From assembly GCA_024278975.1 (NCBI GenBank), contig JAJRSD010000069.1:1-53932 (forward strand): a stretch of 53,932 nucleotides of DNA, written 5' to 3'. The notes under the pieces were generated by a model. The model made no database searches. It had not been told where the DNA came from and worked only from the letters and a program-made list of their open reading frames with translations. Origin of the DNA: Bacteroidota bacterium (lineage in GTDB: Bacteria; Bacteroidota; Bacteroidia; Bacteroidales; Prolixibacteraceae). A program made the position numbers and the translations under genes. Below are positions 37,898-53,932 of this stretch, piece by piece (the stretch's first letter is position 1; every line of letters starts with the position of its first letter).

Positions 37898-38103
37898 TAA
37901 ATGATTATCCGTATTTATACCTAACACTTTACCCTTTCGTCTATCGGCAATTCCCCTCGTTGAGGGGAAGCAGCTCCCAGCAAACGTTGGAGCAAACATC
38001 GAAAAACTATGAACTGTGTTGCGAGCTTTCTCCCCGTCAGCTGACGGAAGATGTCGACAGACAGAGGGGTAGAGCAATAGGTAATTATATGGATAGTCAT
38101 TTA
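37898..38103. repeat. MITE-like element, intact copy
   Basis: 206 bp bounded by TAAATGA/TCATTTA, with terminal inverted repeats of about 52 bp (38 of 52 identical by eye) and a possible 4-bp target duplication AAAC on both sides. Inside are two hairpins: CCCCTC-GAGGGG near 37953-37967 and the perfect palindrome CCGTCAGCTGACGG at 38034-38047. No coding capacity. It sits 3 bp from the glpF stop and 27 bp upstream of the M14 start. A second copy lies at 52219. Confidence 0.8.
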
Positions 38104-38106
38104 AAA

Positions 38107-38853
38107 CTATACTAAACTATTAATAAACAGATAAACCAAAGCAGCCAACCCTGCTCCCACAATCGGTCCGATTATCGGAATCCAAGAATAACCCCAATCA
38201 TTATTATCTTTATTTTTCAGAGGAAGTAGAGTATGTACAATCCGAGGACCTATATCGCGAGCCGGATTAATTGCATAACCTGTAGTTCCGCCTAAACTCA
38301 TCCCAATTGAAAAAACTACCAACGCAACCGGCATTGCACCAAGCGAGCCAAGTCCGACTTTTGAGCTTCCCAAACTTACGTACTCTAATTGTGGTAAGGT
38401 TATTAGTAAAACGGCAAGTATTAATACAAATGTTCCAACCACTTCAGAAAAGAAATTGCTTTTGAAATCTCTTATTGCAGGAGCAGTACAAAAGCACGCT
38501 TTTTTTGCACCCGGGGCGGTTGTAATTTTAAAGTGATTCAGAAAAAAGAGGTAAACAAAAGATGCACCCACCATTGCACCTAACATTTGAGCGATTATAA
38601 AAGGGACTACTTTTGCCCACTCAAATAATCCGGCAAAGGCTAATCCGATAGTTACGGCGGGATTAATATGCGCACCACTTAAATCTGCTGTTGCCACCAC
38701 TGCAACAAAAACTGCCATTGCCCAACCGGCGGTTATCACAATCCAGCCGGCACCGTTGCTGTATGTTTTGTCTAAATTTACATTTGCAACAACACCGTTT
38801 CCGAGTAAAATAAGAATAAATGTTCCGAGAAATTCGCCAAATAGTTCTAACAT
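38107..38853 (-). CDS. glpF: Glycerol facilitator (aquaglyceroporin)
   Basis: 248 residues with two NPA boxes: HINPAV (64-66) and INPARD (196-198). The Arg-Asp after the second box is the glycerol-conducting signature, unlike water-only aquaporins. Six TM segments. It starts 12 bp after glpD, completing a glpK-glpD-glpF operon. The stop abuts a MITE. Confidence 0.95.
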   Translation of the reverse strand: MLELFGEFLGTFILILLGNGVVANVNLDKTYSNGAGWIVITAGWAMAVFVAVVATADLSGAHINPAVTIGLAFAGLFEWAKVVPFIIAQMLGAMVGASFVYLFFLNHFKITTAPGAKKACFCTAPAIRDFKSNFFSEVVGTFVLILAVLLITLPQLEYVSLGSSKVGLGSLGAMPVALVVFSIGMSLGGTTGYAINPARDIGPRIVHTLLPLKNKDNNDWGYSWIPIIGPIVGAGLAALVYLFINSLV

Positions 38854-49586: not shown

Positions 49587-51056
49587 CTAAGTTGCTTTAT
49601 AAGCAGCAACCATTTTATGTTTACGTTTTAAATATTGTTTGGTAAAATAGTCGATGAGGCGTGGGTGTAAAACTATGCCTATTAAACCGAGTGCACCGAG
49701 AACAATGTACGCAACAATATTCCCAAAAAGGAGTGTAATTACTCCATAAACGGCAAGTGGACCAAACAAAATGGGAAAGGTAATCAGCCACTGCGAAGCT
49801 CCCATTCCCTGATAATTAAACATGGCTTTTTGTTCGAGGTCGATTGATTTTCGGCTGGTTAACCCGAGTGCAAAAATTACAAACGTATTTACACCAATAT
49901 TATAAAGCATCACCACAAAATGTATGTATAAAACTTTTGGCGTGATATACATGTACCCCAGCGACAGCAGATAAAATATGATATTAGTTACTGCCATCAG
50001 AAAAAATGCCGATTGTAAAATCTGTTTCATTCTAACATTTTGTGCCATTAAAAGTGGGTAGTATCTGCTGTGCCACGCCGGGAAAAACTGTCCGTACATC
50101 ATTCCAAAAATGCCGGTCATAAACATTCCGCCAAGTACAAGAATAACCTCCGGAGTATCGGCATTGTAATCTTTATAAATCATTAATCCGTAAAAAATAA
50201 AAAGCACCGACATAATCGCTGTGGTTCGCGGGCGTTTGTTACGGGTAATCATTTTTACCTCCAACGACAGCATTTTACCATATTCGCCAATTTGATTGAG
50301 CCACGAAAAATCGTATGTGCTGCCCTCCTTTTTCTTTTGCGAAAGTTCGTCGATATAGAACCGATTGTAGAGATAATTGCGATTCAGAATATAGAGTGCG
50401 GTAATTGTTAGAGGGAAAATTACAACTACTGCGGGATACTGTACAACTAGGTCGAAAAGTTTTCCGAATGTTATCACAAAATCGAAAATACCAAAGTAGT
50501 TAATTGCAAAAATAGCGGCTGCCACAGATAGAAATCCGTAGAAAAAATAGTTCGATTCGTTGGTGCGCCACTTTATATAAATTGCGAGAAAATGATTTAC
50601 AAAAATCATAAAAATAAGCGATGCGAACCATGCAATTAAGTTTGGTGTTTCTAATACATTAACCGCCGCTCTTAACGCGAATGGTAAAATTAAAAGCAGT
50701 GGCAGAAAATTAAAAAAGTGCAACAACGATTTGTTGAGCATATATTTTGCAATACGTTTCCGTTTTACAGGAATTATAAGAAATGGCTGAAACCCGAAAG
50801 TTGGCAGATTTTGCATCATAACCCGAAGCACCAAATCGAAACCAACATAAATAAAAATTAGCGAGTTGAATGCTGCGATTTGATTGTCGGGGTTTGTTTC
50901 AATAAGTTTTTCGCTTAATTGTAAACCCATAAAAAGAGCAACTGCCGAAAAATAGATAGCAAGAAAAATAAGGACTCCTTTTGCTGCCCTGTTTTTTCGC
51001 AGGTTTGCCGACCGTGTGAGTTCGCGCCATGCGAAGTAAAAAAGGTTACGTTTCAT
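49587..51056 (-). CDS. DUF5687 ABC permease
   Basis: 489 residues with about 12 TM segments. The start FAWRELTRSANLRKNRAAKG is typical of this family. It is probably the membrane part of the exporter whose ATPase is encoded next. It follows a membrane protein and PadR regulator on the same strand; the substrate is unknown, with self-protection against membrane-active compounds only a guess. Confidence 0.85.
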   Translation of the reverse strand: MKRNLFYFAWRELTRSANLRKNRAAKGVLIFLAIYFSAVALFMGLQLSEKLIETNPDNQIAAFNSLIFIYVGFDLVLRVMMQNLPTFGFQPFLIIPVKRKRIAKYMLNKSLLHFFNFLPLLLILPFALRAAVNVLETPNLIAWFASLIFMIFVNHFLAIYIKWRTNESNYFFYGFLSVAAAIFAINYFGIFDFVITFGKLFDLVVQYPAVVVIFPLTITALYILNRNYLYNRFYIDELSQKKKEGSTYDFSWLNQIGEYGKMLSLEVKMITRNKRPRTTAIMSVLFIFYGLMIYKDYNADTPEVILVLGGMFMTGIFGMMYGQFFPAWHSRYYPLLMAQNVRMKQILQSAFFLMAVTNIIFYLLSLGYMYITPKVLYIHFVVMLYNIGVNTFVIFALGLTSRKSIDLEQKAMFNYQGMGASQWLITFPILFGPLAVYGVITLLFGNIVAYIVLGALGLIGIVLHPRLIDYFTKQYLKRKHKMVAAYKAT

Positions 51057-51060
51057 ATTT

Positions 51061-51091
51061 TAGTAGTGAGATGTTTGTATTTAGTAATGAG
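51061..51091. repeat. TAGTAGTGAG repeat upstream of the DUF5687 permease
   Basis: TAGTAGTGAG at 51061-51070, 4 bases beyond the start codon, and TTAGTAATGAG at 51081-51091. The same word lies upstream of the ATL start at 10038. Confidence 0.5.
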
Positions 51092-51125
51092 AATTGTCAA
51101 ATTAGTATGTTTTGTTTGAATATTG

Positions 51126-51830
51126 TTATACTGCAAATTCGGCAAAGTGTTCCATAAAGTGTTCTTTTATTTTTTTAGGAATGAAGAAGAATTGTCCGTA
51201 TAACAAAATACTGAATGCAACCATAAAAAATGAAATTGTAAACATAATCCATTGGTTGTAGCTATGTTTCTCAAACAAATTGTAAAAAGTTAAACTCTGT
51301 AATGGAAATTGAGCTAAGAAAATTATTGATATCTGAATTGATTTTAAATAATTAATTAAGATAAAACTTTTCCCTGGTTTTAGTTTTATCTTATAATCGT
51401 TACGTGTAAAATTGAAATAGTAATAAACAATAAAGATTAGGATTAATAAAAAGTAAGTTAAAATAATCCAACTGGATTTGATTGATGTTTGAAATAGAAG
51501 AAACAGTCCTAATGTAAATGCAAACGTCATAATTACTTTTGGCAACTTATAAAATTCAAGAAAATATTTCCATAGCAATCTATTATATTTTCGTCGTAGT
51601 TCTTTCTCTTTTTGCTTTTTTATTTTGCTAAAACCATAAATTCCAAACTTTGCAAACGACTTTTTAAGAGCTTCGTTAAAAGTTAATTCCGAATCTGTTT
51701 TCCATTGCTCCTCAATTGCCGAGGCAAGATGGTCAACCAATTCTATTTGTAAATCGTAGTGATAGACATATCTTTTTCGGCAAAATAAAAATAGTTGTTT
51801 GGTTTCTTCTTCTGTAATTTTTCGGTTCAT
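51126..51830 (-). CDS. Membrane protein paired with a PadR regulator
   Basis: 234 residues. N-terminal 80 residues are soluble and charged (HYDLQIELVDHLASAIEEQW, a helix pattern seen in permease-associated HAAS-like domains); the rest has about five TM segments. It starts 1 bp after the padR stop, so they are cotranscribed. I do not know its function; it may regulate or assemble the ABC exporter. Confidence 0.75.
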   Translation of the reverse strand: MNRKITEEETKQLFLFCRKRYVYHYDLQIELVDHLASAIEEQWKTDSELTFNEALKKSFAKFGIYGFSKIKKQKEKELRRKYNRLLWKYFLEFYKLPKVIMTFAFTLGLFLLFQTSIKSSWIILTYFLLILIFIVYYYFNFTRNDYKIKLKPGKSFILINYLKSIQISIIFLAQFPLQSLTFYNLFEKHSYNQWIMFTISFFMVAFSILLYGQFFFIPKKIKEHFMEHFAEFAV

Positions 51831-51831
51831 T

Positions 51832-52164
51832 TTAAGCCAGTTTTGGATTTAATATTATTTCCATATTTTCTATGAATGACTTCATCTCTCTCAGTAAATT
51901 AACTGTCTCTTTTTTCCCTTTTTCGGTAATAAAATAGTACTTCCGAACACGGTTGTTTACCTTTTTAATTTCAACACTTAATAAGCCTTTTGCTTCTAAT
52001 TTGTGTAGTGTTGGGTAAAGTGCGCCTTCGGTAATTACCATTTGCCCCGAAGTTATTTTTTCAACTTCGCGCGTTATTTTGTAGCCGTACATTTTGCCTT
52101 GCTCTTTTAACAGCGACAAAATAATGGTTGAAAGACTGCCTTTGTACAAATTGTTTTTTTGCAT
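51832..52164 (-). CDS. PadR-family transcriptional regulator
   Basis: 110 residues, winged helix of the short PadR-s2 type: KGSLSTIILSLLKEQGKMYG, TEGALYPTLHKLEAKGLLS, and a C-terminal helix for dimerisation. The start at 52164 was chosen because a TTG two codons upstream lies on the -7 box TATATTTG (52175 to 52168), so transcription should begin at about the ATG. It heads the operon padR, membrane protein, permease, ATPase and probably represses it. Confidence 0.9.
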   Translation of the reverse strand: MQKNNLYKGSLSTIILSLLKEQGKMYGYKITREVEKITSGQMVITEGALYPTLHKLEAKGLLSVEIKKVNNRVRKYYFITEKGKKETVNLLREMKSFIENMEIILNPKLA

Positions 52165-52167
52165 ACA

Positions 52168-52175
52168 CAAATATA
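52168..52175 (-). promoter_or_regulatory. -7 box of the padR operon
   Basis: TATATTTG, an exact match, 3 bp from the padR ATG, which would make a leaderless transcript. No clear -33 element is seen. Confidence 0.5.
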
Positions 52176-52218
52176 TAAAATATTTAATACATAAGAAAGT
52201 TAGGTATAGTTATTATGT

Positions 52219-52387
52219 TTAATGACTATCCGTATAATTACCTATTGCTCTACCCCTCTGTCTGTCGACATCTCCCCTTTTAAGGGGAGAAAGCTTGCAG
52301 CACAATTCAGCACTATTTCGAAGTTTGCTCCAACGTTTGCTTGGAGCTGCTTCCCCTCCTTGAGGGGAAGTGCCGATAGGCAAAGGC
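52219..52387. repeat. MITE-like element, second copy, broken at the IS110 end
   Basis: About 168 bp matching 37898-38103 in reverse orientation, starting TTAATGACTATCC. Hairpins CCCCTTTTAAGGGG (52273-52286) and CCCCTCCTTGAGGGG (52353-52367) occupy the same places as in the other copy. Similarity stops near 52386, and the last 35 bp and terminal repeat are missing where the transposase element begins. Confidence 0.8.
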
Positions 52388-52403
52388 AGTATGTTTGTAA
52401 AAG

Positions 52404-52473
52404 CATAAGTCTTCAAAATTTAGTAATTTTAATATGATAGTATTATTTATTCACTAAAAAAAGAAGACTTATG
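52404..52473 (+). promoter_or_regulatory. Inverted repeat that can hide the transposase start codon
   Basis: CATAAGTCTTC (52404-52414) pairs with GAAGACTTATG (52463-52473), which includes the ATG at 52471. A smaller AAAATT/AATTTT stem is in the loop. Readthrough transcripts would fold and block initiation. Confidence 0.6.
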
Positions 52474-53547
52474 AAAACTCAAGTTAAAACATTAAGTTTT
52501 AAGGGACAAAAAATTTATGTAGGAATTGATGTACATTTAAAAAGATGGACAGTGACAATATTATTAGAAAATATATTTTTTCGTAAATTCAGTCAAAATG
52601 CGAGTGCTTCAGAATTGGGACGCTATTTGCGTAAACATTTTCCAAAAGGGGAATATTATTCTGTTTACGAATCTGGTTTTTGTGGTTACAGCGTTCATCG
52701 AGAACTAGAATCAGAAGGAATTCATAATATTATTGTTAACGCAGCCGATATCCCGACCACAGATAAAGAACGCAAGCAGAAAGACGATGGTAGGGACAGT
52801 ATGAAGTTAGCTAAATCATTAAGAAGCGGAGAATTAACAGGAATTTATATTCCCAAAATAAGTACTGTTGAGATTCGTGGTCTGGTAAGGTTTCGCAAGA
52901 CTACGGTTAAAGAGATAAGCCGTAATAAGATACGAATAAAATCCTATTTGTATTTTAACGGAATTTCAATTCCCCGTGAACTTGAGGTATCATCAAAATA
53001 TTGGTCAGGCAGATTTACTCAATGGCTGTCCACAGTTCGGTTATCTACTGATGCCGGTAATATGGTACTAAAAAAAACACTTGAAAATGTTCATCATTTA
53101 AGGAGTCAATTATTGGAAATCAACCGAACCTTGCGGTCGATGGCAGAAGAAGGTCCGTATTCAATAAAGTTAAAATTACTAATGAGTATTCCTGGTATTG
53201 GACCTATATCTGCTGTAACTTTCCTTTCTGAACTGGAAGATATAACCAGATTTAAAAGTCTTGATACATTTTGTTCTTACGTGGGGCTGATTCCTTCTAC
53301 TCACTCGTCCGGAGAGAATGAAGTCATTCGGGGCATAACACCAAGGTCTAACAATCACTTGCGAAATGTAATAATCGAATGTTCCTGGATTGCAATAAAA
53401 CATGACCCTGCATTATTGTTACGGTTTAGCGAACTTAATCAACGTATGAAAAAGAATAACGCCATAGTTCGAATAGCTAAAAAATTATTAAACAGAATAA
53501 GATATGTAATGAAAAATGGAACTGAATATGTTTGTGCAGTTGTATAA
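52471..53547 (+). CDS. IS110-family transposase (DEDD recombinase)
   Basis: 358 residues. N-terminal RuvC-like domain with D20 (YVGIDVH), E67 (VYESGF), and D106/D109 (KQKDDGRDSMKLAKSL). Middle coiled coil near 195-225. C-terminal Transposase_20 domain with SIPGIGPISAVTFLSELED and VGLIPSTHSSGE, S280 being the likely serine nucleophile. It recombines DNA guided by a bridge RNA in characterised members. It appears intact. Confidence 0.95.
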   Translation: MKTQVKTLSFKGQKIYVGIDVHLKRWTVTILLENIFFRKFSQNASASELGRYLRKHFPKGEYYSVYESGFCGYSVHRELESEGIHNIIVNAADIPTTDKERKQKDDGRDSMKLAKSLRSGELTGIYIPKISTVEIRGLVRFRKTTVKEISRNKIRIKSYLYFNGISIPRELEVSSKYWSGRFTQWLSTVRLSTDAGNMVLKKTLENVHHLRSQLLEINRTLRSMAEEGPYSIKLKLLMSIPGIGPISAVTFLSELEDITRFKSLDTFCSYVGLIPSTHSSGENEVIRGITPRSNNHLRNVIIECSWIAIKHDPALLLRFSELNQRMKKNNAIVRIAKKLLNRIRYVMKNGTEYVCAVV

Positions 53548-53881
53548 AAATAAAAGCAGCTTAAAAAACATTCAACAACCGGAAAGACTGTTATTTATCC
53601 GTTGCGGCTTGGGGTAACCCAATGTCCGTTTGGCAAAGGCCACAGCTTTCCACTATAATAAATTAAACTACTGAATTGCAGCTTTCTCGAAAGTCTGTTG
53701 ATAGAAGGATGTTTTTATAGCTTGCTTAATCTACCAAGAGGGAAACCGACGGCGATATTTTATACCGAAGGTTTTAAAAGTATTACTGGGTATCGAACCC
53801 AGTAATACTTTACCAAGAGGAGAAGACCTCAGGGCTCAATATTGCCCGAAGTCAAAAAAATAAAATTATAAATACTTGAAT
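53548..53881 (+). ncRNA. Structured region after the transposase, candidate bridge RNA
   Basis: Seen: a stem GGAAAG-A-CTG/CAGCTTTCC (53581-53590 with 53643-53651) enclosing TTGGG-GTAA-CCCAA (53609-53622) and TGGC-AAAG-GCCA (53631-53642); a 15-bp perfect hairpin AAAGTATTACTGGGT (53777-53791) with its partner at 53797-53811; two copies of TACCAAGAGG (53732-53741 and 53811-53820). GGCAAAGGC (53632-53640) equals 52379-52387, at the left junction. Inferred: a bridge RNA with a target-guide loop. No transcript evidence. Confidence 0.5.
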
Positions 53882-53932
53882 ATGAATAAAAAAGAAACTT
53901 ATAAATTTGGATTACAACATAGAAGGGGTAAA
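53882..53932 (+). CDS. Partial open frame cut by the window end
   Basis: 17 codons open to the edge, starting MNKKETYKFGLQHRRGK. No Shine-Dalgarno is visible, as usual here. I do not recognise it. It could begin a gene beyond the IS element or belong to its right end. Confidence 0.35.
   Translation, partial: MNKKETYKFGLQHRRGK

Follow-up and report, generated by a model that had tools for sequence, protein, structure and literature searches.

In the RNA of IS621, an element of the IS110 group, the guides stand in the reverse of the order seen in the IS1111 group. For the latter, excerpts of Siddiquee 2024 (PMC11187229) describe a gene followed by a long non-coding region, subterminal inverted repeats, the recombinase motif GL-P----S(t)G, and a guide RNA (seekRNA) in which the top-strand match comes first (5') and the bottom-strand match second; the same excerpts report a reversed guide order for ISEc21 of the IS110 family and a longer seekRNA form for other elements. 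The bridge RNA of IS621 is described in excerpts of Durrant 2024 (PMC11208160) as carrying four guides (LTG, RTG, LDG, and RDG) around a core and as having REP targets, and many IS1111 elements are said there to have a multi-loop donor loop.

We analysed a 53,932-nt stretch of DNA from a Bacteroidota genome (the window), which stops inside the right target of an IS110-family element (Table 1). From sequence matches, covariation between guides and their partners, a conserved structure, and repeats at the target, all of them observed in this element or its relatives, we are nearly certain that an IS1111-type element has its bridge RNA (seekRNA) encoded here, shortly downstream of the recombinase gene, with target guides in the 5' stem-loop and donor guides in the 3' stem-loop, meeting at an AG core. 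The recombinase contains both the DEDD RuvC-like N-terminal domain (PF01548, DEDD_Tnp_IS110, 1.6e-11) and the Transposase_20 domain (PF02371, 1.4e-22) that characterise the IS110 family, and matches NCBIfam NF033542 with 195 bits (cutoff 140). D20, E67, D106, and D109 do not vary across 11 aligned rows, and residues 272-281 (GLIPSTHSSG) correspond to the IS1111-group motif. This transposase gene was the sole one found by a protein search of the assembly. Among solved structures, the recombinase weakly resembles ISCro4 (9t56) and, distantly, IS621 (8wt6, E 4.6e-4), both with E about 4e-4. The non-coding flanks inside the element measure 85 nt to the left of the transposase gene and 378 nt to the right, the latter being the long downstream region of the IS1111 group, and the subterminal repeats are paired at 10 of 11 positions with one extra T, within the 7-17 bp of that group.

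Similar arrangements are found in ISEc11, ISPa11, and ISKpn4, whose IS1111 seekRNAs, according to excerpts of Siddiquee 2024 (PMC11187229), share with our element the downstream non-coding region, the subterminal inverted repeats, the top-strand match 5' of the bottom-strand match, and a specific target. The present element differs from these three in its Bacteroidota lineage and its own REP-like target, and its target and donor guides were placed by covariation. Its recombinase of 358 aa is slightly longer than the 330-350 aa given for the IS1111 group (same excerpts), and its donor loop is a simple internal loop, whereas IS1111 elements often have a multi-loop one (excerpts of PMC11208160). 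Target and donor loops, four guides, a shared core dinucleotide, and a REP target are common to this element and IS621; by contrast, the RNA of IS621, as in the IS110 group, lies upstream of the gene and not downstream, the core is CT and not AG, and the right-target guide has four bases and is longer here (excerpts of PMC11208160). As in the IS1111 group, the right-target guide precedes the left-target guide and the RNA lies downstream of the gene (excerpts of PMC11187229). Each feature of IS1111-group and bridge RNA systems that we looked for is present, the recombinase tree covering relatives only.

Table 1. Coordinates of the element, its parts, and related loci; positions are those of the window unless a locus (L) or contig (C) is named, and the functional names of RNA parts are predictions.
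Feature	Position	Strand	Remark
IS110-family (IS1111-type) element	52386..53925	+	1,540 bp including one AG core copy; ends may float within AAGG
Left target GGCAAAG	52379..52385	+	identical to left-target guide 53632-53638; in REP-like repeat
Core AG closing left target	52384-52385	+	
Left subterminal inverted repeat TATGTTTGTAA	52390..52400	+	pairs with 53912-53921 TTACAACATA
IS110-family DEDD recombinase, 358 aa	52471..53547	+	Pfam and NCBIfam profiles
Predicted bridge RNA, two stem-loops	53577..53720	+	3' of transposase gene; covariation on 13 sequences
Target-binding stem-loop	53581..53651	+	outer stem 53581-53591/53642-53651, apical hairpin 53604-53629
Right-target guide TTTATCCGT	53594..53602	+	pairs with top strand AGGGGTAAA; position validated in relatives
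Left-target guide GGCAAAG	53632..53638	+	same as top strand of left target
Donor-binding stem-loop	53653..53720	+	outer stem 53653-53663/53711-53720, apical hairpin 53678-53698
Right-donor guide TACTG	53669..53673	+	pairs with left-end CAGTA (52387-52391)
Left-donor guide ATAGAAG	53701..53707	+	same as right-end ATAGAAG (53919-53925)
Separate 3' module	53732..53856	+	two CCAAGAGG..GGC..CCGAAG units around 15-bp hairpin (53777-53811)
Right subterminal inverted repeat TTACAACATA	53912..53921	+	partner of TATGTTTGTAA
Right target GGGTAAA	53926..53932	+	goes on as GCGTAGG in contig C64
Dispersed REP-like repeat, predicted target	window 37949-37928; C12, C87, C109, C40, C58, C104	- (window)	
3' module in other IS types	L111 463-584; L112 1501-1623; L113 1501-1622	- (L111), + (L112), - (L113)	
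IS110 relatives with TTGCTNNYRRGTTGCTCNYCAGCAGNGC motif	L017, L018, L019, L029, L044, L045, L053, L054, L021		
74-codon frame	L007 from 2606; L072 from 1724; L020 from 2791 on its reverse complement	+ (L007, L072)	

The left junction of the element was seen in two copies (C76 and C40), and the right junction runs on into contig C64, whose first 141 bases equal the last 141 bases of the window. We took C64 as the right flank on the strength of this overlap; with at least two copies in the genome, it may be the flank of the other copy. The left flank ends in GGCAA-AG, and the right end of the element, ATAGA-AG, is followed by the target. Since the bases AAGG are common to the empty site and the element ends, the junction floats within them; the core was set at AG, and the start of the element at 52386, because the left flanks of nearly all relatives point there. 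The last 131 bases of contig C40 are identical to window positions 52381-52511 and follow a different left flank; the genome therefore carries at least two copies, and the contig of the window is repeat-broken.

The left flanks of both copies are REP-like repeats, in which a short GGGGAA-type hairpin is followed by TGCCGATAGGCAAAG or TGTCGAAGACAAAG, and uninterrupted repeats of this kind are present at window position 37959 (minus strand), in C40, and in C68. Allowing at most three mismatches, TGCCGATAGGCAAAGGGGTAAA was found at seven places genome-wide, against none for a reversed control pattern, and the place in C109 contains the exact empty site GGCAAAGGGGTAAA. With two insertions in REP-like repeats and an empty site in the same genome, the element would appear to spread by targeting a repeat that is scattered through the genome. 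The genome also encodes a second bridge RNA (C79:153653-153781, 86.5 bits with the covariance model R2 described below), followed by a right end (locus L010, C79 153653-153924). Its right-target guide CTGCCCCT matches its own right flank at seven of eight positions, no recombinase gene was found beside it in the 2-kb stretch read, and the locus appears to be what remains of a related element.

Relatives were gathered from three sets of genomes, namely 393 of the same order (74 of which gave a match at E ≤0.001), 395 of the class (8 at E 1e-60), and 395 of the phylum (13 at E 1e-60), the element's own genome being counted in each set, and from one named contig, the sole relative from a contig scan. 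The loci L060 and L063, and likewise L012 and L071, are pairs from single genomes and not independent. Thirteen RNA rows, the window's included, were hand-picked for clear RNA and aligned. In these, 86.2% of the bridge RNA cells form standard pairs compared with 78.2% after shuffling (0 of 500 shuffles), two-sided changes occur in 23 of the 38 pairs, and slid control structures have just 40-49% of their cells paired. Support comes from both outer stems and from the basal part of each apical hairpin (80.6 to 98.4%); the hairpin tips are poorly conserved, with 64.6% pairing in helix 3 on the target side and 47.6% in helix 6 on the donor side. A conserved structure with two guide loops is what bridge RNAs and seekRNAs have, and the covariance check across homologous IS ends proposed in the initial annotation thus returned a structure kept by compensatory changes; the GTAA-loop hairpin described there lies in the target-binding stem-loop, within 53604-53629. 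The covariance model R2, built from the 13 rows, matches 33 of the 48 loci supplied (its building rows included) and gives the window RNA, itself one of those rows, 128 bits, the second best score of the 33.

In a blind test, the flanks of the window's element and of 34 relatives (35 oriented loci) were each compared with their own RNA and with those of all the others; 28 loci had a usable right end and 22 of these also a recognisable left end, the rest being dropped. For the reverse-complemented right flank, the summed longest match was 214 (28 elements), which 0 of 20,000 permutations reached (maximum 177), and for the left flank it was 131 (22 elements; 0 of 20,000, maximum 129); the strand-swapped controls were flat (11,990 and 11,657 of 20,000). 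This signal resides in the set of elements and not in each single one: the best match of several of them, including the window's right flank, fell outside the guide position, and the longest exact match of that flank (CTTTACC) falls in the 3' module instead of the guide.

When the guide positions were anchored on the 13 RNAs, the left-target guide agreed with its own flank at 6.15 of 8 positions compared with 3.34 for the flanks of others, and the right-target guide at 6.31 compared with 3.48; neither value was reached in 100,000 permutations, and this held with the core removed. The weak rows were L016 (2/8, with a one-base alignment shift) and L054 (4/8) for the right guide, and five of the 13 rows for the left guide (5/8 each). 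Outside the model, that is, in elements that were not used to build R2 and whose sequences had been viewed beforehand, the right-target guide scored 7.47/8 in 19 elements against 3.98 for swapped flanks (0/100,000), with 11 perfect matches, seven with one mismatch, and 5/8 in L051. The left-target guide scored 6.00/8 against 4.03 in 11 such elements (0/100,000), the worst being L024 (4/8). Offsets of two bases were permitted for these outside-model target guides and of one base for the left-donor guide, for own and swapped partners alike, and the right-end boundary of L020 was shifted by one base after its guide had been seen. In the window itself, the left-target guide matches 7/7 at its own site and 6/7 at the C40 copy. 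The right-target guide is among the weaker ones: over nine pairs it forms seven Watson-Crick pairs, one wobble, and one mismatch, which corresponds to 6/8 identities with one more position as wobble and the mismatch at the core G.

Both donor ends likewise have their guides, as in bridge RNAs and seekRNAs. At three right-donor positions, picked as variable after inspection of the 13 rows, 30 of 39 cells pair with the left end compared with 17.3 expected (0/100,000). Left-end position 3 is paired in all 13 rows, through A-U, U-A, C-G, and G-C, while position 1 is paired in 7/13 and position 4 in 10/13. The left-donor guide reproduces the final seven bases of the right end exactly in 29 of 32 elements and at 6/7 positions in L020, L051, and L057. 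Twelve elements with a variant right end, with ends such as ATAAAAG, ATAGGAG, ATAGCGG, ATAAGAG, and ATAACAG among the matches, agreed at 82 of 84 positions (0/100,000). L060 and L063 have GG and not AG as the right-end core; their right-target guides end in CC to suit, their left-donor guides end in GG accordingly, and the left-target guide of L063 retains AG despite the GG core at the ends.

These features suggest how the element may work. The recombinase would use the bridge RNA to pair the joined ends of the circular element with the target GGCAA-AG-GGGTAAA. In the 5' stem-loop, the right-target guide would pair with the top strand to the right of the core and, 3' of it, the left-target guide with the bottom strand to the left; in the 3' stem-loop, the right-donor guide comes first and would match the left end of the element, followed by the left-donor guide for the right end. 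The guides would meet at the AG core dinucleotide, the likely place of strand exchange, and the circle junction of the joined ends would read ATAGAAG-GCAGTATG. Transcription of the RNA, its binding by the recombinase, and catalysis are expected by analogy with IS621, ISEc11, and related elements. In this Bacteroidota branch of RNA-guided recombinases, the sequence by itself reveals the four guides and the core, and candidates for targeted insertion are therefore easy to choose and test.

The initial annotation had already proposed the locus as a candidate IS110/IS1111 bridge RNA, a reading which the variation of all four guides with their DNA partners and the covarying structure now support. 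Of the guides it had found the left-target one and missed the right-target and both donor guides. Its 9-base word GGCAAAGGC is indeed identical at 53632 and 52379, and with the core set at AG its final bases GC (52386-52387) belong to the left end of the element, which had been placed about 2 bp too far right. The true target match is GGCAAAG, or eight bases with the G that comes next in the empty site as well; the final C is the element's own, since the empty site shares GGCAAAG and G only. As had been conceded from the start, such a match is weak when it stands alone, the word occurs a third time at 38632, and one or two bases at its end come from the element itself. All this would fit a chance match, with hairpins that are just structure at the transcript end and a protein that chooses the target. 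It is the cross-element comparison that decides: permutation tests across many elements for all four guides, with flat strand-swapped controls, refute the chance reading at the family level and leave it scarcely credible. The proposed comparison of loop and flank in homologues points the same way, as GGCAAAGGC is not kept and the loop word changes with the flank (AACTCAG in L012, CCTTTAG in L014, CCGATAG in L019, AGGAGAG in L018). A genuine bridge RNA in a decayed, non-functional copy would account for the weak right-target guide with its 6/8 identities and core mismatch. We consider such decay unlikely, given a recombinase frame that is open with invariant DEDD residues, a second copy in another REP that is identical over the visible 131 left-end bases, and the high R2 score of this RNA, second best of 33 with the window as a building row.

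The region 53548-53881 had been proposed as a single candidate bridge RNA, and only its first part has kept that name: the 15-bp perfect stem (53777-53791/53797-53811) and the two copies of TACCAAGAGG (53732 and 53811), each confirmed, are contained in a separate 3' module. One RNA over the whole 330 nt, with the module as part of the guide RNA, would agree with the adjacency of the two on the same strand and with the longer seekRNA form known for other elements (excerpts of PMC11187229). We regard it as distinctly unlikely. L016 has a bridge RNA without the module, followed after about 50 nt by the right-end motif, L073 has a short tail with one hairpin only, the same module accompanies IS3- and IS256-type transposases, and R2 matches none of the three loci with such transposases (L111-L113). 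The favoured reading is therefore a bridge RNA followed by a distinct module, and the module is the novel part, the bridge RNA itself belonging to a known kind.

A covariance model of five stretches of the 3' module type (R1), searched under Infernal's stricter filters, matched 7 of 393 genomes, with IS110-type elements in four. Transposase genes of two further types carry the module at their 3' end, in the same orientation as in the IS110 elements: one of IS256/Mutator type (L111, E 6e-14; PF00872, 1.2e-79) and two of IS3 type (PF00665; L112, E 3e-11, and L113, E 1e-9), the module of L112 lying inside terminal inverted repeats (245-272/1647-1674). A weaker match (L115, E 2e-6) lacks a clear transposase in its neighbourhood, and the strong hairpin yields two faint antisense matches. 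In eight sequences, 86.9% of the module pairs are formed compared with 75.0% after shuffling (0/500), and two-sided changes occur in 8 of 20 pairs, a number reached by 17 of 500 shuffles. The module begins 184 nt past the transposase stop codon in the window and overlaps the end of the transposase frame in L111 (44 nt), L112 (61 nt), and L113 (all 122 nt), where it may have a coding part. Coding is disfavoured in the IS110 elements: by eye, the units of the relatives are set off from one another by single-base shifts, and frames within window positions 53541-53932 have at most 52 codons. A tRNA mimic suggested by the T-arm-like loop GGGTATCGAACCC was dropped, relatives carrying other loops (CAGTGAG, CATTGAG).

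Rfam 15 gave no match up to E 1 in window positions 50000-53932, and among nine relatives it gave sub-threshold matches to sraA (E 0.14; 33.3 bits against a gathering score of 56) in the 3' region of L054 and to mir-235 in L053, outside the module. A search for the module in plasmids found nothing; a 24-place match on a Haliscomenobacter plasmid adjoins cas2, is probably a CRISPR array, and was discarded. Likewise, a narrow literature search returned nothing on a 3' module common to different IS families. Because the module accompanies transposases that are unrelated, it is more likely to act in transcript ends or host control than in target choice. We see an even chance that the 3' half represents an unrecognised structured RNA family, an interchangeable IS accessory in Bacteroidota that would act on something common to IS110, IS3, and IS256 elements (transcript end, host factor, or transposition control) and not on target choice. 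A module common to unrelated IS families raises the question of shared RNA-level transposon control.

Other IS110 relatives carry a different motif, TTGCTNNYRRGTTGCTCNYCAGCAGNGC, in place of the module (23 of 393 genomes, control 0). This second motif, in a similar place, is common to IS110-, IS3-, and Mutator-like elements: it was found 3' of an IS3-type transposase (L081) and of Mutator-like transposases, identified by Pfam (L082 and L085 above the cutoff, L091 below) or by eye (L084, L093, and L104), and is enclosed by terminal inverted repeats in L085 and L091. In L089 the IS3-type gene is on the opposite strand, L090 adjoins an ADP-ribosylglycohydrolase gene, and L077, L083, L100, L101, and L105 are without a clear transposase. 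Rfam gave no match at the gathering score for seven of the TTGCTNNYRRGTTGCTCNYCAGCAGNGC loci. Only inspection by eye suggests a pseudoknot in the motif. In a tree built from 26 recombinases, with good support for only 4 of its 23 inner branches, the module types change seven times (minimum 3, shuffles averaging 12.4); L019, with a stop inside its transposase, was omitted from the tree and the protein alignment. In one IS110 branch (L007, L020, and L072), a 74-codon frame lies between the bridge RNA and the right end, and Pfam assigned no family above cutoff to the proteins of L007 and L020. In L020, there are two tandem copies of the left end TCCCTATGTTTGTAATTGAAAAAGTTCCGG, which would fit a second insertion there or a partial duplication.
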